Below are positions 31,691 through 61,950 of a stretch of 64,000 nt of DNA, piece after piece (position 1 is the first letter of the stretch; the number at the start of each line of letters is the position of its first letter). The notes beneath the pieces were generated by a model that was given only the letters and a program-made list of their open reading frames with translations, was not told the origin of the DNA and did not search any database. The translations under genes and the position numbers were made by a program. The stretch comes from Spirosoma sordidisoli (GTDB lineage Bacteria; Bacteroidota; Bacteroidia; Cytophagales; Spirosomataceae): contig NZ_SBLB01000001.1 in the NCBI RefSeq assembly GCF_004138325.1, positions 682,001 to 746,000 on the forward strand, written 5' to 3'.

Positions 31691-31825
31691 AGTCCAATCT
31701 GATTTGAGCAACGATAATACATATTAATTCAGGCAAACTAAATCTGTCTACCATTTCAATAGATTTCTACAAACAACCGCCGTTGCTTTTGGCTTATTTA
31801 GGCAGGTACAACCAACAGCAACGTT

Positions 31826-40976: not shown

Positions 40977-41012
40977 GGAAACTGCCAGCCTGGTATCAGG
41001 CTGGCAGTTTCC
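40977..41012 (-). terminator. Terminator overlapping the end of the Gfo/Idh gene
   Basis: A 16-base stem, GGAAACTGCCAGCCTG (40977-40992) with 40997-41012, has loop GTAT. On the minus strand CGGTTTTTAG follows. One arm is made of the last codons of the minus-strand gene (stop 40996). Confidence 0.78.
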
Positions 41013-42327
41013 AGCCGTTCTGGTAGTTGGCTTTCAGCAGTGCATTGGCCTGCGGGTCGTTACTGAATTCTCCTTTTTCCATATCCCAGAACAGACGCCG
41101 ACCCGTCCGGAAAGCAATATTGCCCAGATGCGAGTTCAACGCGGCTCCCTGCGCCACGTCGGTATTGCAGGTCGGCTGTTTCCGGGATTTGATGCACTCG
41201 ACAAAATTGACCGCGTGATTGTCGAGACCGTTCCCCTGTGGACTTTGCCGGGGAAGCTGTTCCAGTTTATACCTGACAATCCCTTTTTCAGTTACAGTTT
41301 CGGGGTAGAGTTCCCAGCCGCTCCGGTCAACAACCAGCGTACCGTTCTCCCCGATGAACGCTATGCCGTGTGGCCGGTTATAGTTGGCTCCGTTGATACC
41401 GATGGTATGCTCCCAACTCATTGTCACATCCCCAAAGTCGTAGATCGCCTGCTGAGTATCCGGTGTTTCGCGCGCATCGGTAGGGTACCCGTACTTACCT
41501 CCCAGCGACATAATTGATTTGGGGGCGGTTTGCTTCATTCCCCATAAAGCAATATCAATCAGGTGAACACCCCAGTCGGTCATCAGCCCACCCGCATAAT
41601 CCCAGTACCAGCGGAAGTTGAAATGAAACCGGTTTATATTAAAAGGACGCCTGGGTGCCGGACCCAGCCACATGGCGTAGTCAACGCCGGGCGGTACCGG
41701 ACCATCGGGCTGCCTGGGCACTTCACTTTTCCAGCCGATGTATGACCACACTTTTACGATCCGTAGCTTGCCCAGCTTCCCGGAATGCACGTAATCGATG
41801 GCGTTGTAAAAATGAGGACTGCTCCGCTGCCACTGGCCAACCTGCACAATTTTGTTGGTCCGTTTGGCAGCAGCCATCATTCGGTTACACTCCTCGATGG
41901 TATTGGCCAGCGGCTTTTCGACGTACACATCTTTACCGGCTTCACAGGCGTCGGTCATCATCAGACAATGCCAGTGGTCGGGCGTGCCGATAATTACGGC
42001 ATCGATGTCTTTGTTTTCGAGCAGTTTCCGGTAATCGCCGTACGTCTGCGCTTTTTTACCGGTCTGTTTCTCCAGCTCAGCAGCCCGTTTTGTCAGTACG
42101 TTCTGGTCTACATCACAGAGGGCTACGACCTCAACGCCCGGCACTTTCAGATGCGCCTGCACATCGGACCAGCCCATGCCGTTTATGCCGATCGCCCCGA
42201 TGCGGAGCCGGTCAGAGGGAGCAACAACAGGAGTGGCAGCTGTTGACGCGAGGGCTGGCAATGACAGCGCGGGCGCTGCTGCGGAAGCACTTAAGCTCGT
42301 TCGGAGAAAGTCTCGGCGGGTGGTCAT
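40996..42327 (-). CDS. Gfo/Idh/MocA family oxidoreductase with Tat signal
   Basis: 443 residues. The twin-arginine signal TTRRDFLRTSLSASAAAPAL predicts export in folded form with bound NAD(P). The Rossmann domain has IGAIGINGMGWSDVQAH and the conserved VYVEKPLA, in which the Lys is catalytic. The C-terminal dehydrogenase domain has GLMTDWGVHLIDIALWGM. These periplasmic Bacteroidetes enzymes act on sugars and cyclitols, with unknown substrate here. It is transcribed alone. Confidence 0.92.
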   Translation of the reverse strand: MTTRRDFLRTSLSASAAAPALSLPALASTAATPVVAPSDRLRIGAIGINGMGWSDVQAHLKVPGVEVVALCDVDQNVLTKRAAELEKQTGKKAQTYGDYRKLLENKDIDAVIIGTPDHWHCLMMTDACEAGKDVYVEKPLANTIEECNRMMAAAKRTNKIVQVGQWQRSSPHFYNAIDYVHSGKLGKLRIVKVWSYIGWKSEVPRQPDGPVPPGVDYAMWLGPAPRRPFNINRFHFNFRWYWDYAGGLMTDWGVHLIDIALWGMKQTAPKSIMSLGGKYGYPTDARETPDTQQAIYDFGDVTMSWEHTIGINGANYNRPHGIAFIGENGTLVVDRSGWELYPETVTEKGIVRYKLEQLPRQSPQGNGLDNHAVNFVECIKSRKQPTCNTDVAQGAALNSHLGNIAFRTGRRLFWDMEKGEFSNDPQANALLKANYQNGWKLPA

Positions 42328-47408: not shown

Positions 47409-47540
47409 AACGTTCAGTGTGGACATAACTCAGCCGACGAGCAATGGTTACAAGCCAATAGGCAGAAACAAGCCCGCTGGCCTGGATGTTGCTAGCTCAC
47501 AAATACCTGTCTATTCATGTTGCCAACGCCCCGACATCAG

Positions 47541-48209
47541 ATGAACGCTCCTCCCCCCTGGACCCTTACTGGCTATGGTCTGATTCTGGTTGCCCATTTT
47601 CCGGAGGCCTTTGTTCGCCGGCATGGGTTTCTTCAACCCTACCAGCAAGTAGCCTACCGGGGCTGGTTAGGTACGGTCATGCTGGTGAACTATCAAACCT
47701 CTAACGTTGGCCCTTATGCCGAGCTGCTCTTCATACCGGGTCTGTTTCGCTTTGGAAATACAACCAGCTTTTCCATCGCCAAAATTTATGTTTCAACCGA
47801 GGAGAGCGTTGTGAATGGCCGGCTTAACTGGGGCATTCCGAAAGAGCGGGCCGACTTTGCTTTTTCAGAACCGGCCCGTGGCTATCAGCAGATCTCGGTC
47901 AGTCGCAGGGGGCAGCCGTTTCTGTCGGTACAGGCGAAAACGTGGGGGCCCCGTTTTCCGATTTCTACCGCCTTCGTGCCTGGCTTTCGGGTCGTGCAGG
48001 CGTCATTTTTCGAGGCATCTGAGCCTGCGGTCAGTGGTCTGCTCTTGACGAAACCAACGGCATCGGGTTCAGCCAGACTAGCCTCGCTGACCAATGTGAC
48101 TATTGATAGTACCTTTTTTCCAGATTTAAGTGCAATAAAACCGATTATTGCGCTGTCGGTAGAAAATTTCAGCATGCAGTTTCCCCATCCCAGGCAGATA
48201 CGGGGCTGA
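47541..48209 (+). CDS. Acetoacetate decarboxylase-fold protein
   Basis: 222 residues from the ATG at 47541 (an upstream ATG at 47517 is possible). Family features are GPYAELLFIPG, KIYVSTEESVVNGRLNWGIP and EASEPAVSGLLL, which fit the acetoacetate decarboxylase-like beta-barrel. The Schiff-base Lys of true decarboxylases is not clearly at its usual place, so the reaction is uncertain; a related dehydratase or aldolase-like role is possible. Alone, with an inverted repeat downstream. Confidence 0.72.
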   Translation: MNAPPPWTLTGYGLILVAHFPEAFVRRHGFLQPYQQVAYRGWLGTVMLVNYQTSNVGPYAELLFIPGLFRFGNTTSFSIAKIYVSTEESVVNGRLNWGIPKERADFAFSEPARGYQQISVSRRGQPFLSVQAKTWGPRFPISTAFVPGFRVVQASFFEASEPAVSGLLLTKPTASGSARLASLTNVTIDSTFFPDLSAIKPIIALSVENFSMQFPHPRQIRG

Positions 48210-48320: not shown

Positions 48321-49109
48321 GTGCATCAGAAACCATACGCTGCCTACAGCGCCGAGGAGTTTGCCCTCGACGACCTGTTTGTCCGGTGGGTACAACACCC
48401 CGACGACGAAGAGGTAGTGGCGTACTGGGAGCAGTGGTTGCGTAACAACCCCGCCTGTTCAGAAACAGTTGATACGGCGCGCATCCTGGTCGAGACCGGT
48501 AGTCGTCCGATGCTTCCCTCACTCACGTCCGATGAGATTTCGACGGTTTGGGGGCGCATCCGCGAATCGCTCGAAACGATGGAAGACGTTCGTCCGCTGC
48601 AACCCGATGTACGGGCCGTGGTTGGCTGGTGGTACTTTTTCCGGACCGTAGCCGCCACGCTGGGTCTAATCCTGCTCGTAGGCTGGGCGCTCTGGATGCA
48701 GTACGGCCCCGAGCAATCAGTACAGGTAGTACGAACAAATGGTGGCCAGACACGCAGTGTCCGGCTACCCGACAACTCAACGGTTACATTACATCCGAAC
48801 AGCGTAGTTCGGTTTGCCCGCTGCTGGCACGACGAATCGCCGAGGGCGGTCTGGCTGCAGGGGGAAGCTGACTTCGCGGTTGTTCACAGACCTGATACCA
48901 GTTCGTCGAGACTGTTTCGGGTACATACAGCCGACCTGACCATCGAGGCTGTTGGTACCACGTTTCGTGTACGGCAACGGCCCAAAGGCACCCGTGTGGC
49001 GCTCCAGTCCGGCCAGGTTAATCTGCTGATCAGTCAACAACAATCTATTCGCCTGCAACCCGGCGATTCTGTTGAGGTTGCCGGAGGGTCGATTCAACCC
49101 TTACCCTGA
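48321..49109 (+). CDS. FecR family anti-sigma factor
   Basis: 262 residues starting with GTG (the next ATG is far inside). The N-terminal cytoplasmic region (residues 1-95) is followed by one membrane helix (TLGLILLVGWALWMQYG) and a periplasmic FecR domain with TRSVRLPDNSTVTLHPNS, then VEAVGTTFRV-like IEAVGTTFRVR and GQVNLL. Such proteins receive the TonB-receptor signal and release a partner sigma factor. No ECF sigma gene is adjacent. It lies 44 bases before susC and shares its direction. Confidence 0.88.
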   Translation: MHQKPYAAYSAEEFALDDLFVRWVQHPDDEEVVAYWEQWLRNNPACSETVDTARILVETGSRPMLPSLTSDEISTVWGRIRESLETMEDVRPLQPDVRAVVGWWYFFRTVAATLGLILLVGWALWMQYGPEQSVQVVRTNGGQTRSVRLPDNSTVTLHPNSVVRFARCWHDESPRAVWLQGEADFAVVHRPDTSSSRLFRVHTADLTIEAVGTTFRVRQRPKGTRVALQSGQVNLLISQQQSIRLQPGDSVEVAGGSIQPLP

Positions 49110-49127
49110 GTTATATAATTTGTTGTC

Positions 49128-49147
49128 CTAAACCTGTCTAAACCTGT
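49128..49147 (+). repeat. Tandem 10-base direct repeat before susC
   Basis: CTAAACCTGT occurs twice in direct succession (49128-49137 and 49138-49147), 6 bases before the susC ATG. A near match ACCTGTCTAACC is at 48234-48245. It may be a regulator-binding site or an RNA feature. Confidence 0.45.
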
Positions 49148-49153
49148 TCGTTT

Positions 49154-52100
49154 ATGAAGTTAACAACTACCCAATTTATTGGGTTGTCGTGGCGTCCTGT
49201 TGCGATGCTAACGGCACTTACGTTGTTGGGTCAGCCTGCTTTCAGCGCCCCCCCTACTCATCGCTCTGTTCTTGTCGATCCGGCTCAGGAACGCGTCATT
49301 ACCGGTCGCGTACTCTCGACCGATGACAACAACCCCTTACCCGGTGTCAACGTTGCCGTGAAGGGAACCAACCGCGGTACCACTACCGATGCCGAAGGCA
49401 ACTACCGCATTGGGGTTCCCGCAGGCGGAACCGTACTGGTCTTTTCATCAGTGGGCTTTATCAGTCAGGAAGTTACGATTGGCAATCAGGCAACTATCAA
49501 TCTAAGCTTGAAAACCGACGACCGCTCCCTGAACGAGGTCGTCGTTGTGGGGTATGGTACGCAGAAAAAGAGCCAGTTGACGGGTGCTATCTCGTCGGTA
49601 TCGGCAAAAGAAATCGCTGAATTACCCATCACCAACGCGCGGCAGGCCTTACAGGGCCGGGCAGCGGGGGTTGACGTTATTCAGAACGGGAGCAAGCCGG
49701 GAGCCGGCGTAACCGTCCGGATTCGGGCCCGTCGTTCCATCAACGCCAGTAACGACCCCCTGTATGTACTGGACGGGATTCCGCTGGCCGGGAACATTGA
49801 CGACGTTAACCCGAACGACATTGCGGGTATGGAGGTCCTTAAAGATGCGTCGGCTACGGCTATCTACGGATCGCGGGGCGCCAACGGCGTAGTTATCGTA
49901 ACGACCAAACGCGGCAAACCAGGCGGTACCGTCGTGGCTTATGACGGCTACTATGGCACATCCACTTCGCTCGGCACCATCGACGTAATGGATGGCCCCC
50001 AGTTTGCTGAGTATAAGCGGGAGTCACGCCGGGCGGTCAATGCCTATACGACCGATGCAGCCCTGTTTGAGCCCATCGAGCTGGACGGCATCGCTAAAAA
50101 CCGGACAACCGATTATCAATCCTATTTACTGCGTCAGGGCAGCATCCAAAGCCACAACGTTTCGGTGCTGGGTGGCTCCGAAAAAACCCAGTTTGGCCTG
50201 TCGGTCGGGTATTTCAACGAAAAAGGGATTATCTACAATCAGGACTTTACCCGGTATAACTTCCGGCTGGCCATTGACCACCAGATCAGTAAGAAAATCA
50301 GGGTGGGACTTACGTCGCTGGGCGCTTATGGCCTGCAGAATGGCGAAAACTTCAACCCCTACGGCGGAGCCCTCCAGGAAAACCCGCTCGGCAAACCGTA
50401 TGATGACAACGGCAACCTGATTTTCCTGCCCACCTCAGACGGACTTCGGACGAACCCGATTGCCGAGATTATTCCGGGCGCCCAGATCGATCTGGTTAAA
50501 CGAATCCGGATGTTCAACAGCCTATATGGCGAGTGGAACATCATCGATGGCCTGAAATACCGGGTCAACTTCGGCCCTGACTTCACCAACCGGCGGGTTG
50601 GCCGCTTTGTCGGTAGCCAGACAAACGCCCGGCGTGGTGGCGATCCAACCGGCTTTACGGGCTATAATTACCAGTTCAACTACACGCTCGAAAACATCCT
50701 GTCGTACCAGAAAACGCTGGCCGACGTACACAACCTGAACATCACGGCGCTTCACTCGCTGCAGCGCGACGACGTGGAAGAAGGGACGATGAGCGTAACG
50801 GGTATTCCGGCCGAGACCCAGCAGTACTTTAACCTCGGTCAGGCCACCATCATTAACGGGATCGGGACCAACCTGACCCAGTGGACGCTGAACTCGTACA
50901 TGGGTCGTATCAACTACGACTACAACGACAAGTACCTGCTCACGCTTACCGCCCGGGCCGACGGATCGAGCCGTTTCGGTGTCAACAACAAATACGGCTT
51001 TTTCCCCTCGGCAGCGGTTGGCTGGAACCTCAGCAACGAATCGTTCCTGAAAAGCAGTACCTGGGTCGATCTGCTGAAACTGCGGGTTAGCTACGGCTCA
51101 ACCGGCAACACGGCCATTAACCCATACCAGACCCAGACGCTGCTTACCCGTACTACCTATGCGTTTGGCAGTACACCGGCCTATGGCTACCGTCCCAACA
51201 GCATTGGCAACCCGGATCTGAAATGGGAAACGACCACCACCGGTAACATCGGTCTCGACTTCAGCTTATACCGGGGTCGCGTGTCGGGTACGATTGAAGT
51301 ATACCGGGCCAACACCCGCGATCTGCTGCTGTCTGACCAGCTTCCGTTTACCAGCGGCTACGGCAGCGTACTCCGCAACGTGGGTAAAACCCGTACCGAA
51401 GGGGTAGAAGTAACCCTCTCGACGGTCAACGTCAGCACAGCCGGCGGTTTCCGCTGGACAACCGACATCCAGTGGGCCCGCAACCGGGAATCCATTGTCG
51501 AACTCTTCAATGGAAAGGTCGACGACATTGGTAACGCCCGTTTCATTGGTCAGCCCCTGACGGCCTACTTCGATTACAAGAAGATCGGTATCTGGCAGCT
51601 CGGCGAAGAATCGGCCGCAGCCAGCTTCGGTCGTAAGGTGGGTGAAATCAAAGTAGAAGATAACAACGGCCGGGCCGCCGATGGTACGCTGACGGGCAAA
51701 CCCGATGGCAAAATCAACGCCGACGACCGGGTCATTATCGGGTCGCAGGTACCTGAGTTTACCGCGGGTATGACCAACCGGTTCAGCTTTAAAGGCTTCG
51801 ACCTGTCGTTCTTCCTGTTTGCGAGGGTCGGCAGCACCATCCGCAGCGGCTTCCATACGTCGTTCAACTCGCTGGCCGGTCGGTACAACAACCTCGATGT
51901 CGACTACTGGACGCCCAACAACCCAACCAACGAGTTTCCACGGCCCAACCAGTCGCAGGAAGCACCCGTATTCCAGTCAACGCTGCAGTACTTCAGCGGC
52001 AGCTTCCTGAAAGTCCGGAATATCAACATCGGCTACAACATTCCCGAGTCGGTTACCAAACGGCTGCGGATGAGTAGCCTGCGGGTATTTGCGTCGGCTC

Positions 52101-52231
52101 AGCAGCCGTTCATCTTCTCGGAATACCGGTCTAAATACAAAGGCATTGATAACGAGTCATTCGATTCGGTCAACGAAAGCCAAACGCCAGCCGTCAAGCA
52201 ATTCACGTTCGGAATCAACGCCAAATTCTAA
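49154..52231 (+). CDS. SusC/RagA family TonB-dependent outer-membrane receptor
   Basis: 1025 residues. Signal peptide, then a carboxypeptidase-regulatory-like domain (ITGRVLSTDDNNPLPGVNVA, residues 48-130), the plug beginning EVVVVGYGTQKKSQLTGAIS with LQGRAAGVDV and LYVLDGIPL, and a 22-strand barrel ending in FTFGINAKF. SusC proteins with their SusD lid import oligosaccharides or other nutrients under TonB power. There is no separate STN signalling domain at the N-terminus, although a FecR gene precedes it. It is followed by susD after 13 bases. Confidence 0.96.
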   Translation: MKLTTTQFIGLSWRPVAMLTALTLLGQPAFSAPPTHRSVLVDPAQERVITGRVLSTDDNNPLPGVNVAVKGTNRGTTTDAEGNYRIGVPAGGTVLVFSSVGFISQEVTIGNQATINLSLKTDDRSLNEVVVVGYGTQKKSQLTGAISSVSAKEIAELPITNARQALQGRAAGVDVIQNGSKPGAGVTVRIRARRSINASNDPLYVLDGIPLAGNIDDVNPNDIAGMEVLKDASATAIYGSRGANGVVIVTTKRGKPGGTVVAYDGYYGTSTSLGTIDVMDGPQFAEYKRESRRAVNAYTTDAALFEPIELDGIAKNRTTDYQSYLLRQGSIQSHNVSVLGGSEKTQFGLSVGYFNEKGIIYNQDFTRYNFRLAIDHQISKKIRVGLTSLGAYGLQNGENFNPYGGALQENPLGKPYDDNGNLIFLPTSDGLRTNPIAEIIPGAQIDLVKRIRMFNSLYGEWNIIDGLKYRVNFGPDFTNRRVGRFVGSQTNARRGGDPTGFTGYNYQFNYTLENILSYQKTLADVHNLNITALHSLQRDDVEEGTMSVTGIPAETQQYFNLGQATIINGIGTNLTQWTLNSYMGRINYDYNDKYLLTLTARADGSSRFGVNNKYGFFPSAAVGWNLSNESFLKSSTWVDLLKLRVSYGSTGNTAINPYQTQTLLTRTTYAFGSTPAYGYRPNSIGNPDLKWETTTTGNIGLDFSLYRGRVSGTIEVYRANTRDLLLSDQLPFTSGYGSVLRNVGKTRTEGVEVTLSTVNVSTAGGFRWTTDIQWARNRESIVELFNGKVDDIGNARFIGQPLTAYFDYKKIGIWQLGEESAAASFGRKVGEIKVEDNNGRAADGTLTGKPDGKINADDRVIIGSQVPEFTAGMTNRFSFKGFDLSFFLFARVGSTIRSGFHTSFNSLAGRYNNLDVDYWTPNNPTNEFPRPNQSQEAPVFQSTLQYFSGSFLKVRNINIGYNIPESVTKRLRMSSLRVFASAQQPFIFSEYRSKYKGIDNESFDSVNESQTPAVKQFTFGINAKF

Positions 52232-52244
52232 CTGCAACCTATCC

Positions 52245-53927
52245 ATGAAAAAGTCATATCTATTGGTGAGTGCCTTGACAGTGGGCTTACTCTTCAGCAC
52301 AACCTCCTGCAAAGACGTATTGGAAGAGGTACCTGTTTCGCAGGTAGGCGCTCAGTACATCAACAGCGCAGCCGGGTTCGAAGCCGCGGGCCGCGCAGCC
52401 TATTCGACCCTGCGCGATTTCTACGGTCGCGAGATCGGGATGAACCTGACCGTATTCGGCACCGACACCTATACGATGGGGGCCGATGGGAGTTACAAGT
52501 TCATGAACCAGTACCTGTCGCAGTTTGACGGGCGGGTCGACATCCTGCGTGACCTCTGGAACAACTTCTACGTGGGCATCAACACGATGAACATTGTCAT
52601 CGATAATGCCGCTACGGTCACCGGTCTGGATGCCAACCTGGTCAAGCGCCGGGTCGCCGAGATGAAATTTCTGCGGGCTCACCATTATTTCGTGCTGGTA
52701 CAGACTTTCGGCGGTGTTGCGCTGATCACAAAAGGTAATCTGGAACCAACTAAAGCGTTCAACCGGGCTTCGGTCAAAGATGCGTATGCTTTAATCACCA
52801 GCGATCTGGAATCGGCTATACCGGATTTGGGTACGCCGACTTCAGACTACGGCCGGGCTACCAAAGGCGCGGCAGAACATCTGCTGGCTCGTGTTTATCT
52901 GACCAAAGCGACCTCGGAAGCCGCTGCCGCCGACGACTACGCCAAAGCAGCTACCTACGCCACGAACGTCATCAAGAATTACAGCTATGCGCTGCTGCCT
53001 GATTTCGCGAGCGTATTTGCCCAGGGGGGTGGTGAGATCAACAGCGAGGTTATTTTCGCTACGCAGTATACGTCCGACGCCTTGACCAATATTGGCGTAG
53101 CCGGTGGGGCTGTCGTAAACGGTAACCAGACTCACCTGTATTTCGGTATGGAATACGATACGCAGGCAGGTATGCAACGCGACGTGCTGGGTGGCCGTCC
53201 TTTCAAACGCTACCGCCCAACTACGTACATGCTCGAAACGGTTTTTGCCCAGGCAAACCGGGTCAATGATTCGCGCTACAAAAAGACGTTTAAGGATACC
53301 TGGCTCAGCAACCGCCCTGGCACCTACACCAACATGTTCGACGATTCAAAAACGTCGGCCACCTTTGCCGCTGGCGATACCACGATTTTTATTCCGGGTT
53401 TCGAGATGTCGAAGGCTGAGCGGGCCAAGCGCAAATACCAGGTGCTGGTGCCGAGCAACTACCGCCCCAACCTGTTCCCAACCCTTCAGAAGTTCCTGGA
53501 CCCCCTCCGCCCCGACCGGACGTACGAGGCCGGTAGCCGCGACTTCCTGATGTTCCGACTGGCTGAAACCTACCTGATTCTGGGCGAGGCACAGTTCAGA
53601 CTGGGTAAGCTCACCGAAGCAGCCGAAGCCATCAACGTAGTCCGTCGGCGGGCAGCCTGGCCGGGTCGGCAAACTCAGATGGAAATTACCCCCGCTCAGC
53701 TGAGTATCGATTTCATCCTCGATGAGCGCGACCGCGAGCTGGCCGGCGAAATGTTCCGCTGGTTCGATCTGAAACGGACGGGTAAACTGATTGAACGCGT
53801 CAAAGCCCACAACCCCGATGGCGGTCCGAACATTAAGGATTTCCACGTACTGCGGCCTATTCCGCAGGATCAGATCGACCGTACCACCAACGGGGCTACT
53901 GCCTTCCCGCAAAACCCCGGCTACTAA
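52245..53927 (+). CDS. SusD/RagB family nutrient-binding lipoprotein
   Basis: 560 residues from the ATG at 52245. Signal peptide ends in the lipobox TTSCKD (Cys near residue 22). The helical TPR-like scaffold (MKFLRAHHYFVLVQTFGGV in part) and C-terminal DERDRELAGEMFRWFDLKRT are the SusD signature. It caps the SusC barrel and binds the ligand at the surface. The stop lies before a terminator; the following genes are likely part of the same locus. Confidence 0.95.
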   Translation: MKKSYLLVSALTVGLLFSTTSCKDVLEEVPVSQVGAQYINSAAGFEAAGRAAYSTLRDFYGREIGMNLTVFGTDTYTMGADGSYKFMNQYLSQFDGRVDILRDLWNNFYVGINTMNIVIDNAATVTGLDANLVKRRVAEMKFLRAHHYFVLVQTFGGVALITKGNLEPTKAFNRASVKDAYALITSDLESAIPDLGTPTSDYGRATKGAAEHLLARVYLTKATSEAAAADDYAKAATYATNVIKNYSYALLPDFASVFAQGGGEINSEVIFATQYTSDALTNIGVAGGAVVNGNQTHLYFGMEYDTQAGMQRDVLGGRPFKRYRPTTYMLETVFAQANRVNDSRYKKTFKDTWLSNRPGTYTNMFDDSKTSATFAAGDTTIFIPGFEMSKAERAKRKYQVLVPSNYRPNLFPTLQKFLDPLRPDRTYEAGSRDFLMFRLAETYLILGEAQFRLGKLTEAAEAINVVRRRAAWPGRQTQMEITPAQLSIDFILDERDRELAGEMFRWFDLKRTGKLIERVKAHNPDGGPNIKDFHVLRPIPQDQIDRTTNGATAFPQNPGY

Positions 53928-53948
53928 TCACGTTGAACCATACTCAGC

Positions 53949-53984
53949 AAAAGCACCGGAACCCGTTCGTTTCGGTGCTTTTTG
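53949..53984 (+). terminator. Terminator after susD
   Basis: AAAAGCACCG (53949-53958) pairs with CGGTGCTTTT (53973-53982) around a 14-base loop, then T. It ends the fecR-susC-susD transcript, so the following genes need a promoter of their own. Confidence 0.85.
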
Positions 53985-54034
53985 TTTCTGTTCCTGGCAG
54001 GATAAGTAGAAAAACGGCATTGGCGTCTTACACA

Positions 54035-54095
54035 GATGCATGGGCGTACAGCATGCTCTGTTTAACCATCAGTATTCGGTTCAGCCTATACTGAT
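54035..54095 (+). promoter_or_regulatory. Two inverted repeats before the TIM-barrel gene
   Basis: CAGA-T-GCATG (54035-54044) pairs with CATGCTCTG (54053-54061) with one bulged T. ATCAGTAT (54068-54075) pairs with ATACTGAT (54088-54095). The second ends 20 bases upstream of the ATG. Operator or leader function is inferred. Confidence 0.4.
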
Positions 54096-54115
54096 TATTC
54101 CTAACTCTTATCACT

Positions 54116-55042
54116 ATGAATGAAACTGTAAATAGACGACAGTTTCTGAAAACCACTGGTATTTCGGCTCTGGCTCTCACAGCCGGAGCCGATTTTTTGC
54201 TGGCTCAGTCAGCAAAAAAGTCTGGTTTGCAGATCGCTTATTCAGCCATCACCTGGGGCGGCAACGACGCCCAGGCCATTGCCGACCTGGCCGCTCTTGG
54301 CTACCGGGGTGTTCAGTTGCGAGCCAATACCTTTGGTCCCTACAAAGCCAAACCGTCAGAACTGAAAGCGTTACTGGATCAGCATAAACTGAAGCTGGCC
54401 ATGTTCTCGAGCGGTAACGTAGAGATCGATCCCGCCAAAGAACAGAGTACGATCGATATGCACGTGGCTCACGCCAGCTTCGTGAAAGCCCTGGGCGGAT
54501 CGGCCATTCAGCTCACCAACAGTGTTCGGCCCAAAGATCGGCTTCCAACCACCGACGAACTGAAACGGCTGGCGGCCGTCATGAACGAAATCGGCAAACA
54601 GACTGCCGATATGGGTGTTCAGGCGGCTTACCATAACCACATGAACCAGCTCGGCGAAACGCCGGAAGAAGTTGATGTCATTGTGCAGGCCATGAATCCC
54701 AAATACTGCAAGCTGCTGCTCGACATTGCCCACTACAAACAGGGCGGTGGACAGCCCGAACAGGCCGTGAAGCAGTATAAGGACCTGCTGTATGCACTGC
54801 ACCTGAAAGATACCATGTCGCCCCTGCCCGATAAACCCGACAATCCTAAAGCCTACAAGTTCGTTGAGCTGGGCCGGGGTAATGTCAACGTTCCCGCCGT
54901 ATTCAGTGCTCTCGACGAGATTAACTTCAAAGGCTGGGGCATCATTGAACTGGATGGCGTTCCTGAAAAAGACAAATCAGCGGCCCAGTGTGCCCAGATC
55001 AATAAAGACTACATTACCAAAACGCTTAAACACAACCTGTAA
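54116..55042 (+). CDS. Sugar phosphate isomerase/epimerase-like TIM-barrel protein
   Basis: 308 residues. A twin-arginine-like leader (NRRQFLKTTGISALALTAGA) implies export. The mature part is the xylose isomerase-like TIM barrel (AP endonuclease family 2): AYSAITWGGND, AYHNHMNQLGE with metal ligands, LLLDIAHYKQGGG and HLKDT followed by LGRGNVNVPAVF. Such enzymes epimerise, isomerise or eliminate on keto-sugars. It is followed by the DUF1080 and Gfo/Idh genes, so a periplasmic role on an oxidised sugar is plausible. Confidence 0.88.
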   Translation: MNETVNRRQFLKTTGISALALTAGADFLLAQSAKKSGLQIAYSAITWGGNDAQAIADLAALGYRGVQLRANTFGPYKAKPSELKALLDQHKLKLAMFSSGNVEIDPAKEQSTIDMHVAHASFVKALGGSAIQLTNSVRPKDRLPTTDELKRLAAVMNEIGKQTADMGVQAAYHNHMNQLGETPEEVDVIVQAMNPKYCKLLLDIAHYKQGGGQPEQAVKQYKDLLYALHLKDTMSPLPDKPDNPKAYKFVELGRGNVNVPAVFSALDEINFKGWGIIELDGVPEKDKSAAQCAQINKDYITKTLKHNL

Positions 55043-55093
55043 GCCAGTGCACCGGGGTTTACCTCTGGCGCCCGGGCGTTAATCTGAACACGT

Positions 55094-55837
55094 ATGAAAC
55101 ACCTTTTTGTAGCCGGCATCCTGTCGCTGAGTCTGATAGCTGCCGAAAAACCCCAAAGCCCCAATACCCTAACCGATAAAGAACGGAAAGAAGGCTGGAA
55201 GCTGCTCTTCGACGGTAAAACGACAAACGGCTGGCGCGGAGCCTACAAAGACAAGTTTCCGGATAAAGGCTGGTCCGTACAGGATGGTATGCTGAGTATT
55301 CAGAAATCAGACGGATCAGAGTCGCAAAGCTTTGGCGACATTGTTACGACCGGCGAGTACGGCGATTTCGATCTGACTTTCGATTTTAAACTCACCGACG
55401 GAGCTAACAGTGGCCTCAAATACTTCGTGGTTGAGCAGCAGCCGAAACCCAAAGGATCGGCTTTCGGTCTGGAGTTCCAGGTTCTTGATGACGACAAACA
55501 CCCCGACGCCAAGATGGGTCGCGATGGTAACCGAACAATCGGTTCGCTCTACGACCTGATCACAGCCACCGGAAAAAAAGCCAACCCCATCGGCGAATGG
55601 AACACGGGCCGGGTGGTGTCAAAAGGGCAGCACGTTGAACACTGGCTGAACGGCAAAAAAGTGGTCGAATACGAGCGGGGCAGCGAAAAATTCCGGGAGC
55701 TGGTTGCCATGAGCAAATACAAAGCCCCCGAGTATAACGCCAACGGCCGGTTTGGTGAGGCCAGCAAAGGTCACATCCTGCTTCAGGACCACGGCGACCA
55801 GGTATCGTACCGCAACATCAAGATAAAGACCCTGTAA
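55094..55837 (+). CDS. DUF1080 (3-keto-disaccharide hydrolase-type) protein
   Basis: 247 residues. A short signal-like N-terminus (HLFVAGILSLSLIAAE) is followed by a concanavalin-like jelly roll typical of DUF1080: GWKLLFDGKTTNGWRGAYK, GEYGDFDLTFDFKL, NSGLKYFV, FGLEFQVLDDDKHPDA, RNIKIKTL at the end. The family is now linked to hydrolysis of 3-keto-glycosides and other oxidised disaccharides. It lies between the TIM-barrel and Gfo/Idh genes, 51 and 172 bases away. Confidence 0.9.
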   Translation: MKHLFVAGILSLSLIAAEKPQSPNTLTDKERKEGWKLLFDGKTTNGWRGAYKDKFPDKGWSVQDGMLSIQKSDGSESQSFGDIVTTGEYGDFDLTFDFKLTDGANSGLKYFVVEQQPKPKGSAFGLEFQVLDDDKHPDAKMGRDGNRTIGSLYDLITATGKKANPIGEWNTGRVVSKGQHVEHWLNGKKVVEYERGSEKFRELVAMSKYKAPEYNANGRFGEASKGHILLQDHGDQVSYRNIKIKTL

Positions 55838-56009
55838 ACCCGGACCACAGACCCGAACAGGTAACCAGCCTGTCGCCCAAATTCTGAGCATCCGCCAAGT
55901 AAAGTACCTGCCAGTCATGACTTTACCAGGATAACGTCAGGCGAGTAACAGGCTGATGATGAAGTAACGGCATACAGCTTATTTTATAAACCAGAGATAC
56001 TACGTCACT
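55838..56009. other. Spacer before the Gfo/Idh gene
   Basis: 172 bases without a gene. It contains a 7-base inverted repeat GTAAAGT/ACTTTAC (55900-55927 region) and nothing else recognisable. A terminator or promoter could lie here, but neither is clear. Confidence 0.3.
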
Positions 56010-57350
56010 ATGGAAAATCGTCGCGATTTTATTAAAAAAACGGCCGTGGCCGGCCTGGGCCTTGCGCTGCCGACGGCCAGCTTCTCGGCCAGCAGTTACG
56101 CTCGTATTCTGGGCGCAAACGACCGGGTTCGGGTAGGGATCATCGGTTTCTCGGACCGGTTCCGGCAATCGCTGGCGCCGTCGTTCATGAACCACGCCAA
56201 AGACATGAATTTTGCATTTGTGGGCGTTTCGGACATCTGGAGCCGCCGTCGCGATGAAGCCGAATCATTTCTGAAAGGCAAGGGCTGGAACGACAGCGCC
56301 TTCTTCAAAGCCCGCAACAACGACGAACTCCTGGATCGGAAAGACGTGGATGCGGTCATCATCAGCACTGCCGACTTCCAGCACGCGCTCCACTGCGTCG
56401 ATGCCGTAGAATCTGGCCGGGATGTGTACGTCGAAAAGCCGTTTGCCGAATCGCTGGAAGATGCCCGCAAGGCTTTGAAAGCGGTTGAAAAGTCGAAGAA
56501 AATCGTACAGGTCGGTTCGCAGCGCCGGTCGGCTCCCAACTATCATGCCGCCAATGATTTTATCCGATCCGGTAAATTTGGCGACATCAGCATGGTAGAG
56601 ATGACCTGGAACGTGAACCAGCCCGGCCGCTGGCGCCGGGCCAAACTGGTTTCCGAAATCCGGAAAGAAGATACCGACTGGACCCGCTTCCTGCTCAACC
56701 GCCCCAAAGTAGACTGGGATTCGCGCAAATACCTCGAGTACCGCCTGTTCTACCCATACTCGTCCGGCATTCCGGGTCAGTGGATGTCGCACCAGATCGA
56801 TACCGTTCACTGGTTCAGCGGTCTCGAACATCCGCGCTCGGTAGTCGCCAACGGGGGTGTGTATGTCTGGAAAGACGGTCGGGTAAACCCCGATACGTTT
56901 ACGGCCGTGTTCGATTACGGTCCGGACAACGACAAAGCCAAAGGGTTTCAGGTGCTGTATTCATCGCGGATGCACAACGAAGCAGGCGGCACGAAAGAGT
57001 ATTACTACTCGAACGGCGGCATGATCAACCTCGATACCAACAAGATTACCTCGGAGGGTGGTTTGCAGGCAGGTCCGGCCAAAGAGATGGGAATGGAGCC
57101 AAACCTTCTGGCTGCTACGGAGCTCAAATCGATGGGCCAGATGGCAACCGGTGCCAATACCGGAGCCGACCCCATGACGTCGCTGCACATGCGCAACTGG
57201 ATGGAATGCGTACGGAGCCGTAAAGAGCCGAACGCACCCGCTAAAGCAGGCTTTAACCACTCCATTGCCAATATCATGGCAACCATGGCGCTGCATACCG
57301 GTAAGCGTGTTACCTGGGATGCTACCAAACAGGATGTTGTAGTCAGCTAA
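56010..57350 (+). CDS. Gfo/Idh/MocA family oxidoreductase with Tat signal
   Basis: 446 residues. Twin-arginine leader (NRRDFIKKTAVAGLGLALPT) followed by the Rossmann domain (VRVGIIGFSDRFR) and the catalytic VYVEKPFAESLEDARKALKA, in which the Lys of EKP is catalytic. The C-terminal half has WMSHQIDTVHWFSGLEH with the second catalytic His. Likely oxidises a sugar hydroxyl in the periplasm with a tightly bound NAD(P). It ends the putative 3-keto-glycoside set. Confidence 0.93.
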   Translation: MENRRDFIKKTAVAGLGLALPTASFSASSYARILGANDRVRVGIIGFSDRFRQSLAPSFMNHAKDMNFAFVGVSDIWSRRRDEAESFLKGKGWNDSAFFKARNNDELLDRKDVDAVIISTADFQHALHCVDAVESGRDVYVEKPFAESLEDARKALKAVEKSKKIVQVGSQRRSAPNYHAANDFIRSGKFGDISMVEMTWNVNQPGRWRRAKLVSEIRKEDTDWTRFLLNRPKVDWDSRKYLEYRLFYPYSSGIPGQWMSHQIDTVHWFSGLEHPRSVVANGGVYVWKDGRVNPDTFTAVFDYGPDNDKAKGFQVLYSSRMHNEAGGTKEYYYSNGGMINLDTNKITSEGGLQAGPAKEMGMEPNLLAATELKSMGQMATGANTGADPMTSLHMRNWMECVRSRKEPNAPAKAGFNHSIANIMATMALHTGKRVTWDATKQDVVVS

Positions 57351-57367: not shown

Positions 57368-57416
57368 AAAAAGCCGGGCCGTTGATGCGTAATAGCATTA
57401 ACGGCCCGGCTTTTTT
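57368..57416. terminator. Bidirectional terminator between the Gfo/Idh and nuclease genes
   Basis: AAAAAGCCGGGCCGTT (57368-57383) pairs with its complement (57400-57415), extended by ATGC/GCAT. The A- and T-runs on both sides stop both convergent genes. Confidence 0.92.
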
Positions 57417-57435: not shown

Positions 57436-60400
57436 CTATTGCTTAACTACCTTAAGCACGACGGTCTGCTGACCGGCGGACAACCGCAGCAGGTACAGAC
57501 CCGCGGGCCGACTACCCAGCCGCACCCGTTCCAGCTGATCAGCAGTGGTAACAGGTACCGAGGAGTCGACAAGGGCATTACCAGCCAGATCGGTCAGCAC
57601 GATTCCGACGGTTTTACCCATCGCCCCGCTGATACGAACTGTAAACTCCTCGCCTACCGGATTCGGCAGCAGCGTAGCCGTCAGGGTGGTACCGGGTTCA
57701 GCCGCGGCCGCTAACCGACCATTTGGGTTGGTAAACGTTAGCGTAAACGAGGTGCGTACTGACTGCCCAGCGCCATCGATGGCCGTTACCGTAATCACGC
57801 GCTGATCGGGCTGGCTGACGGTTCCCATGATGGTCTGGTTGAGGTACATCAGTCCACGGGGCAGGTCACTTACATCGATGCCCGCCACGGGGCCGGAGAA
57901 CGTACCGGCCGGGATCGCAAAACTGAAGGGCTGGCCAACCGTACCGGTCTGATTGGGGATCGACTGCGCTACCGCCAGGCTTCCGCTGTTGCTACCCTGA
58001 TTCGGGCTGGTAAACGTAAGCAGGAACGTTGTCTGCACCTGATTCCCCTGTCCATCAACAGCCGTTACGGTAATATACCGCTGGTCGGGCTGACTAACGG
58101 TACCATCGAACAAGCGGGTATCGCTGTAGTAAAACAGCCCGCGGGGCAGATCGCTTACATCAATAGCAGTAACCGGCCCGGAGAAGGTACCCGCCGGAAT
58201 AGCGAAACGGAAGAACTGACCAACGGTACCGGTCTGATCAGGTATGGTCTGCGCTACGGCCAGACTTCCCTGAGCGCCCGTCGAGAACGTAAGCAGGAAA
58301 CCGCTTCTTACGGTGTTGCCCTGGCCATCCGACGCCGTTACGTTTATGTACCGCTGGTCGGGCTGGCTAACCACCCCACTGATTGTCCGGGTGCTGCTTG
58401 TATACATCAGCCCACGGGGCAGATCGCTTACATCTACCGAAGCAACGGAACCGGAGAAGGCGTCGGCGGGAATCGTGAAGCTGAACGACTGCCCTACCAG
58501 AGCGGCCTGATTAGGAATCGGTTTATTCACCGCCAGTGCCCCATTTCCCGGGGTAGGCCCGGCCGCCGACTGAATCGTAAACACGAGCGTCAGGCTGTTG
58601 GCCCCGTTTTGCGGGTCTGTGGCCGTAATGGTTGCGGTGAAGCTACCCGCCTGGGTTGGAATGCCGCTGATCAGCCGCAGGTCAGGCGGGGTCTGGCTCA
58701 GACCGGCGGGCAAACCAGCCGCGCTCAGGGTCAACGGCTGACTTTCCGGATCGGAGAAGGTGCCATCGGGCAGCTTATAGCTGAAAAACTGGCCTACTGT
58801 ACCCGTCTGGGCAGGTAATGTCAGGTTTACGGCAGGCGGCAGATTCGCTCCCTGCGTACGGCAATAAGCCCCGAAATCGAATTCGTACGTAACCTCGGCG
58901 CCACTCTGACGAGCCCGGAGCAGAATGGTGGTGCCGCTGTTGGGATCCGAGCGTTTCTCGGCATCGATCGTGCCGTTCGGGTTCGTTGTCCAGGTCGGGG
59001 TAATGCCCAGTCCGAAAAACTCGATGGGCGTACCATCGCCCCCGCTGGTTCGGAAGGTAATGCCCCCCGTCTGACAGTTGTAGAGCGGCATCGTAAGAGT
59101 CAGTGGCGTAGCAACCGGAGCCAGGTTGAAACGGGCAACGCTAGGGTCGTGATCGCTGTCCTGATCGTTGAACTCCGAGTTGATATGCACCACATCCATG
59201 CGGTCGAGCCGATTGCCGGTCAGGTTGTTACTAACCAGAATGTGGTCAATGGCCTGCGCGTTGCCTTCAAAATTATAGGTATAGCGTTCGTTGGCTGGCA
59301 AGGTCTCGATCAGCGCAGTTAGCGGAGCGGCCTTCAGGATATTGAGCGGACTGGCAAATTCAAAATCGTTCAGGTCACCAGCTACAATGACGTTGGCACT
59401 GGCATCGACGGCCAGAATAGCCTGCACGAAATCGCGTATCACCGTGGCCTGTTGATTGCGCTGGGTCTCACTACTCAATACGGGAGGCTGCACATTTCCG
59501 AACAGCGGATTGTCGCCCCCTTTCGATACCAGGTGGTTACCAATCACGAACACGGTCTGTCCGTTGAAGAGGAACTCACCAGCCAGCGGCTTCCGGCTTG
59601 CGCTGTTGGCGCCCCCCCCATCGAAGGCTGGGTTCGTGGGCTCAACCCGCCCCGGGCTGAACGACAGTTGTGGCTTTCCGCCAACGTTGTTCACGGTCGT
59701 GGCGCTGGTCGATGTGCCTCCCGGACGATCGACGAACGTAACCCGGGCCGGATTGAACAGAAAACCTACCCGAATATTGCCTCCCGGCTCTCCGCCATCC
59801 TGGTTGTTCACGGGGTTAATCTGTCGGTATTCGTAGGTGGGCCCACCAGCCGTAGTGATGGCATTGATCAGCAGGCCAAACGTCGTTGACGCATCTACAA
59901 CCCCGTTATTCGTTGGGCCGCTGTTATCCTGAATCTCTTCCAGCAGCAGAATGTCCGGTGAGCGCAGATTGGTAACGATTCGACCCGCAATGGCCGAGAA
60001 CGTAGCATCGCCCGGGTCCAGGTTCTCTACGTTGAAGGTGCCAAACGTCAGTTGACCGGTCGTACCGGTCAGATCAGTCACCTCTTTGGTCAGCGGGTTA
60101 GAGACCACCACCGGCAGGGATGTAGCCAGCACCTCGTAATTACCAGCCGCATAGTTGACAATCCCGGTAATCGTGTTGAACAAGGCGCCGGTGTTGACCA
60201 CAGGCGTGACAAAACTATTGTTGGGCGGGTTCAGCAGGTTGTCGTCAATCTGGATGCGCTCCGGGTTGAAGTCAGCAGCGCTGATGACGATACCTCCCCG
60301 TGCTGATCGGCCGGTTACGTTAGCGCCATTATCGGCCAGCACCCATACTTCACCCTGGGCTGCCCCACTGGTGACTGTAGGACTGGCTGCAACCGGGTTG

Positions 60401-61950
60401 TTGATCTGTACCCGCATCCCTTCCAGACTCTCGTAGAAATCAATACCGTCGGTGGCGGGGTCGAAACTGCTGAAATTGTCGTCTTCGATGATGGTAGTCG
60501 GAATAGCCCGACCGCCGGCACCCACTATCGTTGCGGCTGGCAGCGTTTGACCTTCCGACAGCTCAGTTACCGTAGGGCTGGTAATCTGCGTAATGGTTAG
60601 GTTAGTACCCGTGCCAAACTCGCCAACGACCCCGCTTACCTGCACGCCGTCACCAACCAAAATGGTAGAAGCCGGCGCCGTACCACTGCCCGTAAAAACG
60701 AATATCCCTTCTGACGTCCGGTCATCAGCGTCCGGCTCGGGATCCTGCATGTAAAACCCGTTCGACGCACGCGCCGTTACGATGCCGGTTACATTGGTAA
60801 CCGTTTGTCCGAACAGGGGGGATCGATGTGAGGTACCCTGTATGGTCCGGATTCGGGTTACGGGCGCACTTTCATTATCAGTAATAACAACCGTTGCCAG
60901 GTTGTCAGGACTGGCCCCAACGGCATAGCTGGTCGAACTGGCCAGCGTCAGGGCAGCCGTCTCGGCGCCTTCCGAATCGGAGTCGTCAACGGGCGTTATG
61001 GTGATATCGGCAGAAGCTGCCCCAGCGGCAATGGTAATGGTGCCACTCAGAGTCGGGGTGTAGTCGGTGCCATTGATAGCAGTGCCTCCCACCGTATAAG
61101 TTACCGTCAGCGGATCCGTTGTAGCACCCGTACGGGAGAAACGAAACGTGCCGGGATCAGAACCGGCTTCCGCAGCGCTGGCGTCAATGGCAGCCAGGGT
61201 TACCGTTGGCAGGGCTACCCCACCGCCGGTCGACGCCGTTACCGTCAGATCATCAATGGCCAGACCGTGATCATTGCCTGTATCGTTCGCATCTGTCCAG
61301 CGAAGTAAAATTTGCTGACCAGCCTCAACGGGCGTTGCGAAGGTGATGGTTTGGGTCAGCGTTGTCCGATTGGCGGCCAAATTACCATCCAAAGCACTAG
61401 CCGCAACGCCTGATATGGGACTTATAAAATCAAGTGCGTCTACAGGAGTACCCGTTGAACTAAGCGTGGGCGAAGGCCCGACAATGTAGGCAAATGTTAA
61501 CCGCTGAGGACCTGCGGGTGGATTGCCTCCCCCAACGCGCCACTGCTCGCCCGTGTAGGTGATGTTTAACGAGGTAATAGCGGTACCGGTGTTATTGGAA
61601 AAAACGACGCCGAAAACCGATTGCAGCGTTCCCGAAGCCAGCGCCCCCAACGCACGATCAACATTGCCGGTTGAACCGTAGCTATACGTATCGCCCGTGT
61701 TTCCAGTGCCCGCATCGGCAGCATACTGTTCGTTATCACGGCCTCCTCCTCCGCTCTCCTGCAACAAAAACCCGGCAGGCAAATCCGCATTGGTAGTGCC
61801 ACTGGTGGCCAGCCCGTTAAAGTTCTGGGTGTAGGTCAGATTGCCCGCCGACAAAGACACCTGAGCCCGGGAGTCGGCTGGCCTGAGCAGCGCCAGCACA
61901 AACAACCCGCCCACCATCGTTGATGAGAGTAGTTTGTAGATTTTATACAT
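57436..61950 (-). CDS. Secreted ExeM/NucH-type nuclease/phosphatase with T9SS sorting domain
   Basis: 1504 residues. Signal peptide; N-terminal beta domain; Calx-beta repeat near residues 248-358 (TDYTPTLSGTITIAAGAA); an OB-like region to about 560; an endonuclease/exonuclease/phosphatase domain near 633-943 with Asn in TFNVEN, Glu in LLLEEIQD, Asp/Asn in GDLNDF and His in DSDHDPS; then Ig/cadherin-like repeats of about 91-95 residues (three near copies, and one more distant); and a C-terminal sorting domain (LLPNPVGEEFTVRISG, GLYLLRL, VVLKVVK). It likely cleaves extracellular DNA or phosphate esters after T9SS export. Confidence 0.93.
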   Translation of the reverse strand: MYKIYKLLSSTMVGGLFVLALLRPADSRAQVSLSAGNLTYTQNFNGLATSGTTNADLPAGFLLQESGGGGRDNEQYAADAGTGNTGDTYSYGSTGNVDRALGALASGTLQSVFGVVFSNNTGTAITSLNITYTGEQWRVGGGNPPAGPQRLTFAYIVGPSPTLSSTGTPVDALDFISPISGVAASALDGNLAANRTTLTQTITFATPVEAGQQILLRWTDANDTGNDHGLAIDDLTVTASTGGGVALPTVTLAAIDASAAEAGSDPGTFRFSRTGATTDPLTVTYTVGGTAINGTDYTPTLSGTITIAAGAASADITITPVDDSDSEGAETAALTLASSTSYAVGASPDNLATVVITDNESAPVTRIRTIQGTSHRSPLFGQTVTNVTGIVTARASNGFYMQDPEPDADDRTSEGIFVFTGSGTAPASTILVGDGVQVSGVVGEFGTGTNLTITQITSPTVTELSEGQTLPAATIVGAGGRAIPTTIIEDDNFSSFDPATDGIDFYESLEGMRVQINNPVAASPTVTSGAAQGEVWVLADNGANVTGRSARGGIVISAADFNPERIQIDDNLLNPPNNSFVTPVVNTGALFNTITGIVNYAAGNYEVLATSLPVVVSNPLTKEVTDLTGTTGQLTFGTFNVENLDPGDATFSAIAGRIVTNLRSPDILLLEEIQDNSGPTNNGVVDASTTFGLLINAITTAGGPTYEYRQINPVNNQDGGEPGGNIRVGFLFNPARVTFVDRPGGTSTSATTVNNVGGKPQLSFSPGRVEPTNPAFDGGGANSASRKPLAGEFLFNGQTVFVIGNHLVSKGGDNPLFGNVQPPVLSSETQRNQQATVIRDFVQAILAVDASANVIVAGDLNDFEFASPLNILKAAPLTALIETLPANERYTYNFEGNAQAIDHILVSNNLTGNRLDRMDVVHINSEFNDQDSDHDPSVARFNLAPVATPLTLTMPLYNCQTGGITFRTSGGDGTPIEFFGLGITPTWTTNPNGTIDAEKRSDPNSGTTILLRARQSGAEVTYEFDFGAYCRTQGANLPPAVNLTLPAQTGTVGQFFSYKLPDGTFSDPESQPLTLSAAGLPAGLSQTPPDLRLISGIPTQAGSFTATITATDPQNGANSLTLVFTIQSAAGPTPGNGALAVNKPIPNQAALVGQSFSFTIPADAFSGSVASVDVSDLPRGLMYTSSTRTISGVVSQPDQRYINVTASDGQGNTVRSGFLLTFSTGAQGSLAVAQTIPDQTGTVGQFFRFAIPAGTFSGPVTAIDVSDLPRGLFYYSDTRLFDGTVSQPDQRYITVTAVDGQGNQVQTTFLLTFTSPNQGSNSGSLAVAQSIPNQTGTVGQPFSFAIPAGTFSGPVAGIDVSDLPRGLMYLNQTIMGTVSQPDQRVITVTAIDGAGQSVRTSFTLTFTNPNGRLAAAAEPGTTLTATLLPNPVGEEFTVRISGAMGKTVGIVLTDLAGNALVDSSVPVTTADQLERVRLGSRPAGLYLLRLSAGQQTVVLKVVKQ
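57720..58545 (-). repeat. Coding tandem repeats in the nuclease gene
   Basis: Three consecutive units of the Ig-like domain, with the equivalent GTACCGGTCT spaced 285 bases apart for the first two and about 273 for the third. Each encodes IPAxxFSGxVxxIDVSDLPRG and VSQPDQRxIxVTAxDG. The DNA is conserved enough for recombination to change copy number. Confidence 0.75.

Follow-up and report, generated by a model that had tools for sequence, protein, structure and literature searches.

The 64,000-nucleotide stretch of Spirosoma sordidisoli DNA analysed here, referred to as the window, carries at positions 48321-57350 of the + strand six genes coding for a FecR-like protein, a SusC transporter, a SusD lipoprotein, a TIM-barrel protein, a DUF1080 protein and a Gfo/Idh oxidoreductase. 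We lean, with considerable reserve, towards the view that this locus is a periplasmic 3-keto-glycoside module. The view starts from what was observed, namely the gene content, its conservation, the family membership of the products, their active-site residues and the position of the Gfo/Idh protein in a clade of its own. Domains were assigned by Pfam and NCBIfam profile searches of the window proteins with the curated cut-offs. Together with the coordinates and strand, these matches bear out the original prediction, which was made from the letters of the window and described these six genes as running in one direction. That prediction also spoke of a locus without a glycoside hydrolase. No glycoside-hydrolase model, DUF1080's own family aside, matched the six proteins at E 1e-3, so the statement holds for these genes, but not for all relatives of the locus: GH3, GH88 or GH13 genes lie inside or beside the core in loci L205, L202 and L193.

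The DUF1080 protein (247 amino acids, 55094..55837, + strand) matched the 3keto-disac_hyd profile PF06439 with 173.1 bits at a cut-off of 26.8, over profile positions 1-187 of 187, and belongs to this family. Its N-terminus has, judged by eye, a Sec-like signal. The closest solved relatives were 3hbk (3.5e-96) and 4jqt (3.1e-91), followed by 3osd, 8rr2 and 8tda at about 1e-43. Several genera carry a longer form of about 455-490 amino acids, which has the length of the two-domain chain 4jqt. An alignment of 41 rows was made from the window protein, 32 syntenic relatives and eight proteins encoded beside curated genes of the BT_2158 family. It revealed 35 invariant positions, including H136, D138, R147, Y153, D154, H183 and H233; the window protein thus shares its conserved residues with members found beside curated 3-dehydrogenases. 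H233 may be equivalent to H275 of a Bacteroides thetaiotaomicron lyase (PMC13273386), and no weight was placed on this. The protein is predicted to cleave 3-keto-glycosides. The link between DUF1080 and 3-keto-disaccharide hydrolysis, as originally proposed, is upheld by the PF06439 membership, the invariant positions and the equal annotations of BT2156-58.

The TIM-barrel protein (54116..55042, + strand) is an AP_endonuc_2 protein (PF01261, 110.9 bits), which we predict to be a 3-keto-glycoside lyase or hydratase; it is 100% identical to its counterpart in S. lacussanchae (locus L108). The model built with AlphaFold2 had a predicted local distance difference test score (pLDDT) of 91 and was used for the structure-based search that had been proposed as a check. 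In the Foldseek list, IolE occupied ranks 1-3 and 5, AtHYD, a 2-hydroxy-3-keto-glucal hydratase, ranks 4 and 9, AsbF, a probable 3-dehydroshikimate (3-DHS) dehydratase, rank 6, and the lyases AL1 and BT1 ranks 18, 24 and 25. The list thus holds a hydratase and lyases, with IolE in first place and with isomerases and epimerases among the matches. Since all these enzyme types occur together, the fold alone is indecisive. The active site was compared with that of the O-glycoside eliminase AtOGE (8bvk). According to the available text of PMC10628242, the metal of AtOGE is held by His132, Asp163, His189 and, weakly, Glu233, and His134 is catalytic. In the alignment to 8bvk, H132, H134, D163 and H189 of AtOGE correspond to H173, H175, D203 and H229 of the window protein; E278, set against Glu233, lies beyond the printed alignment and was placed by its strand. 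All five active-site candidates were invariant in 41 TIM-barrel rows, and the protein has the complete AtOGE-type set of metal-binding and catalytic residues. It is likely that the enzyme acts by elimination or hydration adjacent to a ketone, as a lyase or hydratase rather than as an isomerase, the latter being ranked second because of these residues. As far as the residues tell, it most likely extends the set of linkages that can be cleaved, as an additional lyase or hydratase. The label of isomerase in the original prediction was probably ill-chosen, given that the residues agree with those of a 3-keto-glucoside eliminase.

The third enzyme, a Gfo/Idh/MocA oxidoreductase of 446 amino acids (56010..57350, + strand), matched GFO_IDH_MocA (PF01408) with 66.1 bits. 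It and the TIM-barrel protein passed the model of the twin-arginine translocation (Tat) signal (20.3 and 20.7 bits, respectively, cut-off 16.7). The arginine pair was invariant in the 41 aligned TIM-barrel rows and in 32 aligned Gfo rows, and in a wider set a script found the Tat motif in 38 of 40 Gfo rows. An exported Gfo/Idh protein is thus encoded beside DUF1080, a setting that resembles that of the BT_2158 family but does not define membership. G46, S48, R50, E142-K143-P144, Q257, H261 and D264 did not vary among 40 rows of the clade, and every row (40/40) carried the clade signature, which consists of a G-x-S-x-R loop, Gln before the active-site His, and SSGxPxQWxxHQIDT. Conserved catalytic residues were not absent from all three proteins, which the original prediction had named as grounds for giving it up.

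The order of the genes was examined in other genomes. A profile built from the alignment of the TIM-barrel protein retrieved 171 relatives, and the best 80 of the 171 served as the set of named loci. Homologues were counted at an identity of at least 35%, on the same strand and within about 8 kb. The resulting figures are low estimates because the count includes 10 loci, of the 80, that are located on short stretches. The complete order FecR-SusC-SusD-TIM-DUF1080-Gfo was found in 31 of the 80 loci, TIM-DUF1080-Gfo in 61, TIM-DUF1080 in 68, TIM-Gfo in two and the TIM-barrel gene alone in 10. A first set of 40 loci, which overlaps the 80, had all six genes in 20. The proposed check of synteny in other Spirosomaceae thus showed that the order is kept, and the opposite outcome that had been envisaged, unrelated gene content in all neighbours of the homologues, was not seen. 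A SusD gene of any identity lay no more than 1 kb before the TIM-barrel gene in 49 of the 80 loci. The host genome has 54 SusD matches, some of them in pieces, in 7.4 Mb, so the repeated adjacency is unlikely to be due to chance.

The transporter genes of the window adjoin the enzyme genes. They comprise a TonB-linked outer-membrane transporter of the SusC/RagA type (49154..52231, + strand, 1025 amino acids; OMP_RagA_SusC TIGR04056, 842.4 bits, cut-off 368.25) and a SusD/RagB lipoprotein (52245..53927, + strand; SusD_RagB PF07980, 113.3 bits), for which the ATG at 52245 and a TTSC lipobox were chosen by eye. The FecR-like protein (48321..49109, + strand, 262 amino acids; PF04773, 59.5 bits) is encoded before SusC, or before the TIM barrel, in relatives. 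In three Rudanella-like and two Dyadobacter loci FecR precedes the TIM-barrel gene with no SusC/SusD pair passing the filter, and in Dyadobacter locus L150 the SusC/SusD position is held by a divergent pair (32% and 26% identity). No sigma-factor gene was found among the scanned neighbours of the FecR-like gene; the gene upstream of it (47517-48209) codes for an acetoacetate-decarboxylase-like protein.

The gaps between the genes were scanned for terminator-like hairpins. In the window, a hairpin of 14 pairs followed by a T run occupies 53949..53982 (+ strand), between SusD and the enzyme genes. Among the relatives, a strict rule that accepted perfect stems only gave similar hairpins in 25 of 49 SusD-TIM gaps (median gap 172 bases), in three of 61 TIM-DUF1080 gaps (median 107) and in one of 58 DUF1080-Gfo gaps (median 174). 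A second hairpin of the window, with 20 pairs (57369..57414, + strand), lies 3' of the Gfo gene and is common to this gene and a convergent one. The latter (57436-61950, - strand) codes for a large ExeM/NucH-like extracellular nuclease with a score below the model cut-off and a type IX secretion system (T9SS) sorting domain. Over the whole window the terminator scan gave 17 sites against 11.1 in shuffled sequences, the two hairpins of the locus being among the longest stems, and the promoter scan gave seven sites against 6.2, which is no excess. A single operon from FecR to Gfo is unlikely given the hairpin in the SusD-TIM gap, here and in relatives. There are probably two transcription units, and the enzyme genes probably form a unit of their own that is kept beside the transporter genes. 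The predicted linkage of SusC/SusD to the enzymes is thus sound in that they adjoin in many relatives, but in others the pair is swapped, absent or parted from the enzymes by a hairpin.

Several observations weigh against the reading of the locus as a 3-keto-glycoside module. Against the profile of the BT_2158 glycoside 3-dehydrogenase (NF058561), the window Gfo scored 84.7 bits, with a cut-off at 750, and it reached no curated dehydrogenase cut-off among the NCBIfam models. It is further from the BT_2158 family than a paralogue in the same window, a second Gfo/Idh protein (40996-42327, - strand) that scored 169.7 bits, also under the cut-off. The cofactor loop is G-x-G-G-x-G in all 10 BT_2158 rows, and an Asp precedes the active-site His; the window protein has Ser for the second Gly and Q257 for the Asp. 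In related dehydrogenases this Asp and the His act together with the lysine of the E-K-P motif. The structure prediction for the Gfo protein was of low quality (pLDDT 58); the probable cause is that the 16 rows used for it differed too little. A tree of 38 rows, which included the window protein, 18 random picks from 39 clade rows and proteins from 10 of the 12 BT_2158 loci, parted 19 Gfo-clade rows from 10 BT_2158-family rows by a branch supported at 100/100; the program warned of long branches meeting, and one gene of the own genome was entered twice (C27, L025). Given the loop and Q257, the enzyme may not be a 3-dehydrogenase. The loop was dropped as a unique feature: at the position of the second Gly, four other Gfo proteins of the own genome (the 40999 gene of the window, L023, L026 and L027) carry Asn, which is also found at the place of Q257 in three distinct Gfo genes of the own genome. 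As these proteins vary there too, only the exact set of Ser and Gln is special to the clade.

Judged by its sequence, then, the Gfo protein has a BT2158-like setting without being a member of the BT_2158 family. Because it stands outside that curated family, oxidation at C3 is something we infer. The original claim of C3 oxidation is right about a Tat-exported member of the Gfo/Idh family, but that member falls outside the curated glycoside 3-dehydrogenases. The clade could instead be an enzyme family not yet recognised as such, with the same DUF1080 partner as BT_2158 but with another target position or substrate, or with another mode of cofactor binding. We consider this unlikely. If it is true, DUF1080 chemistry would draw on two oxidising modules, the clade being the second. 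The clade occurs in 192 of 200 family genomes, among them genomes of 2-3 Mb, which hints at a general function beyond diet, such as recycling of glycosides made by the cell. As another oxidising partner, a GMC-family FAD oxidoreductase of the LacA type (29984-31711, - strand) was rejected; it lies about 22 kb before the TIM-barrel gene and reached no NCBIfam cut-off. The neighbouring open reading frame 31748-32575 (- strand) has no Pfam match and overlaps a dehydrogenase-like frame on the other strand, and for these reasons it was dropped as a GMC small subunit.

In the case of the TIM barrel, the best sequence relative was IolE, which with 69.3 bits came ahead of every 3-keto-glycoside lyase (8tct, 8tcs, 8tcd and 8bvk). 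Isomerases and epimerases make up much of the Foldseek list, and the five-residue pattern was present in 8/8 TIM-barrel paralogues of the own genome, so it marks a wide branch of the family and not one reaction. The place of IolE would fit a cyclitol pathway, in which Gfo would be an inositol-type dehydrogenase, the TIM barrel an inosose dehydratase and DUF1080 the enzyme that frees a conjugated cyclitol. Oxidation followed by elimination beside the ketone would be unchanged, and the substrate would be inositol or an inositol glycoside. For the TIM-barrel protein, iolE (TIGR04379) was the best NCBIfam model (95.6 bits), 3cny, an IolE, the best PDB relative (2.6e-18) and IolE the first Foldseek match, and iolG was the second-best NCBIfam model of Gfo (78 bits). 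These scores are, however, far below the cut-offs of TIGR04379 (290) and TIGR04380 (355), which places neither protein among IolE or IolG, and DUF1080-Gfo pairs occur without the TIM barrel. Inositol operons are not known to involve Tat export or a partner of the DUF1080 family. We regard the cyclitol pathway as improbable.

We hold it equally improbable that the TIM barrel is a true isomerase or epimerase that converts the freed 3-keto sugar, with DUF1080 as the sole cleaver. PF01261 includes many epimerases, the D-allulose and D-tagatose 3-epimerases and the isomerase Art22 appear in the Foldseek list, DUF1080-Gfo pairs without the TIM barrel are common, and the residue pattern, being shared by all own paralogues, may be less telling. 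Against this reading speaks the second His of the His-x-His pair, which sugar 3-epimerases are not known to have. This His was kept in 41/41 rows, and in AtOGE and the C-glycoside enzymes, which have Glu as the first ligand, it is the catalytic base (available text of PMC10628242). Two TIM-barrel proteins from BT_2158 loci also have Glu in place of the first His, so that the window protein is not simply the same part. Their Glu was tried as a contrast with epimerases and dropped, as C-glycoside eliminases have Glu too.

A further point against a fixed three-enzyme module, as we read the locus, is that its parts also occur separately. In locus L188, from the same genus, the order is FecR-SusC-SusD-DUF1080-Gfo and the TIM-barrel gene is missing, and the 10 loci with the TIM-barrel gene alone count in the same direction. 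The latter belong to Arcicella, Flectobacillus, Pseudarcicella, unnamed Cytophagales and one record named Cellulophaga. Where their neighbours were scanned in part (L168, L174, L180 and L184), the genes were unrelated to the pathway, and a sugar-transporter-like gene of the major facilitator superfamily lies 3' of the TIM-barrel gene in L168 and L184. Across 200 sampled family genomes, Gfo was detected at E 1e-130 in 192, small genomes of 2-3 Mb included, and the TIM barrel at E 1e-40 in 154. Of 20 family loci picked for a TIM-barrel gene that was missing or located elsewhere, 15 had DUF1080 directly beside a gene of the same Gfo clade, two had one gene in between and three lacked DUF1080. A phylum sample of 345 genomes, only three of them from the family of Spirosoma, contained the Gfo clade in 21 genomes, every match with at least 716 bits; of the 19 loci retrieved, 11 had DUF1080 beside the Gfo-clade gene, once at just 26% identity. 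The TIM-barrel subfamily was found at E 1e-50 in one of the 345 genomes, which was the window's own. From this distribution and adjacency, DUF1080-Gfo looks like the more constant and older pair, with the TIM barrel as an addition in this family. That Gfo is a GH109-like NAD-dependent glycosidase carrying out oxidation, elimination, hydration and reduction in one site, with DUF1080 and the TIM barrel as helpers, is very improbable: GH109 enzymes have the Gfo/Idh fold with tightly bound NAD and the window protein falls short of every curated dehydrogenase cut-off, but it has no GH109 match at E 1e-3 and is thus no member, and the C-terminal model PF21252 is without a match in the window, its one match in the genome lying on another contig (C12:367003-367551).

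Other arrangements of these genes were also observed. The module looks split in a genome to which L138, named Fibrella rubiginis, and probably L206 belong, with TIM-DUF1080 in one place and SusC-SusD-Gfo with a GMC oxidoreductase and a mannonate dehydratase in another. In L206 the GMC gene is directly 3' of Gfo and is followed by the mannonate dehydratase, a short-chain dehydrogenase and a second Gfo; L207 has genes of equal sizes. A DUF6807 gene lies 3' of Gfo in Dyadobacter (L150:12869-13903), and genes of 342-368 amino acids occupy this position in further loci. The own genome has, in addition, a locus (L282, C24:257500-271500) with SusC, SusD, DUF1080 with FG-GAP repeats, YdcZ and a TIM barrel, without an adjoining Gfo. 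Loci L120 (Flavobacterium sp. SUN052) and L185 (Cellulophaga sp. BC115SP) resemble those of Rudanella or Flectobacillus, and the record names may be wrong. In a genome of the same genus (G194, C1:3036267-3036839), the TIM-barrel match has two in-frame TGA codons and the nearby Gfo match none.

In the proposed 3-keto-glycoside module, the glycoside would enter through SusC/SusD, as the families suggest. The Tat-exported Gfo/Idh protein, with its nicotinamide cofactor folded in, would oxidise C3 of the glycosyl unit. The ketone would render H2 acidic, and DUF1080, the TIM barrel or both may abstract H2 so that the aglycone leaves by beta-elimination, to judge from their residues and relatives. 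Water would then be added back to the 2-hydroxy-3-keto-glycal, and the same Gfo protein would reduce the 3-keto sugar. Since the retained NAD(P)H would be used for this reduction, the cycle would need no outside redox partner. The originally predicted oxidation at C3 and splitting in the periplasm are made plausible by the conserved cluster, the exported enzymes and annotations like those of BT2156-58, but every catalytic step, as well as the transport role and the substrate, is predicted from sequence. Cleavage of glycosides by oxidation, elimination, hydration and reduction is recent knowledge, reportedly studied mainly in gut bacteria and Agrobacterium. The present data show that such a gene composition is widespread in the family of Spirosoma. 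The oxidoreductase belongs to another clade there, and the residues of the TIM barrel suggest the work of a lyase or hydratase though related genes are annotated as isomerases. The data also provide a compact three-gene set for assay and a sequence signature for finding more. A literature search, with most subscription papers outside its scope, found no report of this locus in Spirosoma.

The chemistry of oxidation and elimination is already known, and the arrangement of the locus, its Gfo clade and its type of TIM barrel are a variant of it. The nearest known system is BT2156-BT2158 of B. thetaiotaomicron, whose 3-keto-glycoside pathway was reportedly the subject of Nasseri et al. 2024 (Nature 631:199). 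According to the available text of PMC10434189, these genes are annotated as a sugar phosphate isomerase/epimerase, a DUF1080 protein and a Gfo/Idh/MocA oxidoreductase, which are the three annotations of the trio in the same numerical order. BT2157 is described as a 3-ketotrehalose hydrolase in the accessible part of PMC9007349, and BT2158 as a periplasmic glycoside 3-dehydrogenase in that of PMC11300592. The window differs in that its Gfo belongs to another clade; SusC/SusD and FecR genes adjoin its trio. In the 12 loci that passed the BT_2158 cut-off, DUF1080 was adjacent in eight, at 40-44% identity, and separated by one gene in a ninth, at 34%. Six proteins from six of these loci were scanned, giving two TIM barrels, one beta-propeller and three without a match; the neighbour in L248, with no Pfam match and so no TIM protein, was excluded from the count. 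The TIM-barrel protein of L277 matched C-deglycosylation enzymes weakly and 4ovx strongly. The two BT_2158-family loci with a TIM barrel have Glu as the first ligand, whereas the window protein has His. The 3-keto-beta-glucopyranoside-1,2-lyases AL1 and BT1 (8tcd, 8tcr, 8tct) and AtOGE share with the window protein the TIM barrel, His-x-His, Asp and His; AL1 and BT1 have Foldseek E values of about 1e-12 but an identity of 16-18%, and the window protein differs from all three by its Tat signal. IolE, the myo-inosose-2 dehydratase, is its best match in sequence and fold, from which it differs by a score far short of the IolE cut-off and by its export. The IolE reaction is likewise an elimination adjacent to a ketone. 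Finally, in Caulobacter, DUF1080 is reported near LacABC and proposed as a periplasmic 3'-ketolactose hydrolase, although a Pedobacter with ten DUF1080 genes, none with a lactose phenotype, warns against an easy transfer (available text of PMC9007349). The likeness lies in periplasmic oxidation followed by proposed cleavage by DUF1080; in Caulobacter, according to the same text, the oxidation is carried out by the membrane-bound LacABC, whereas in the window a Tat-exported Gfo/Idh protein is proposed for this step.

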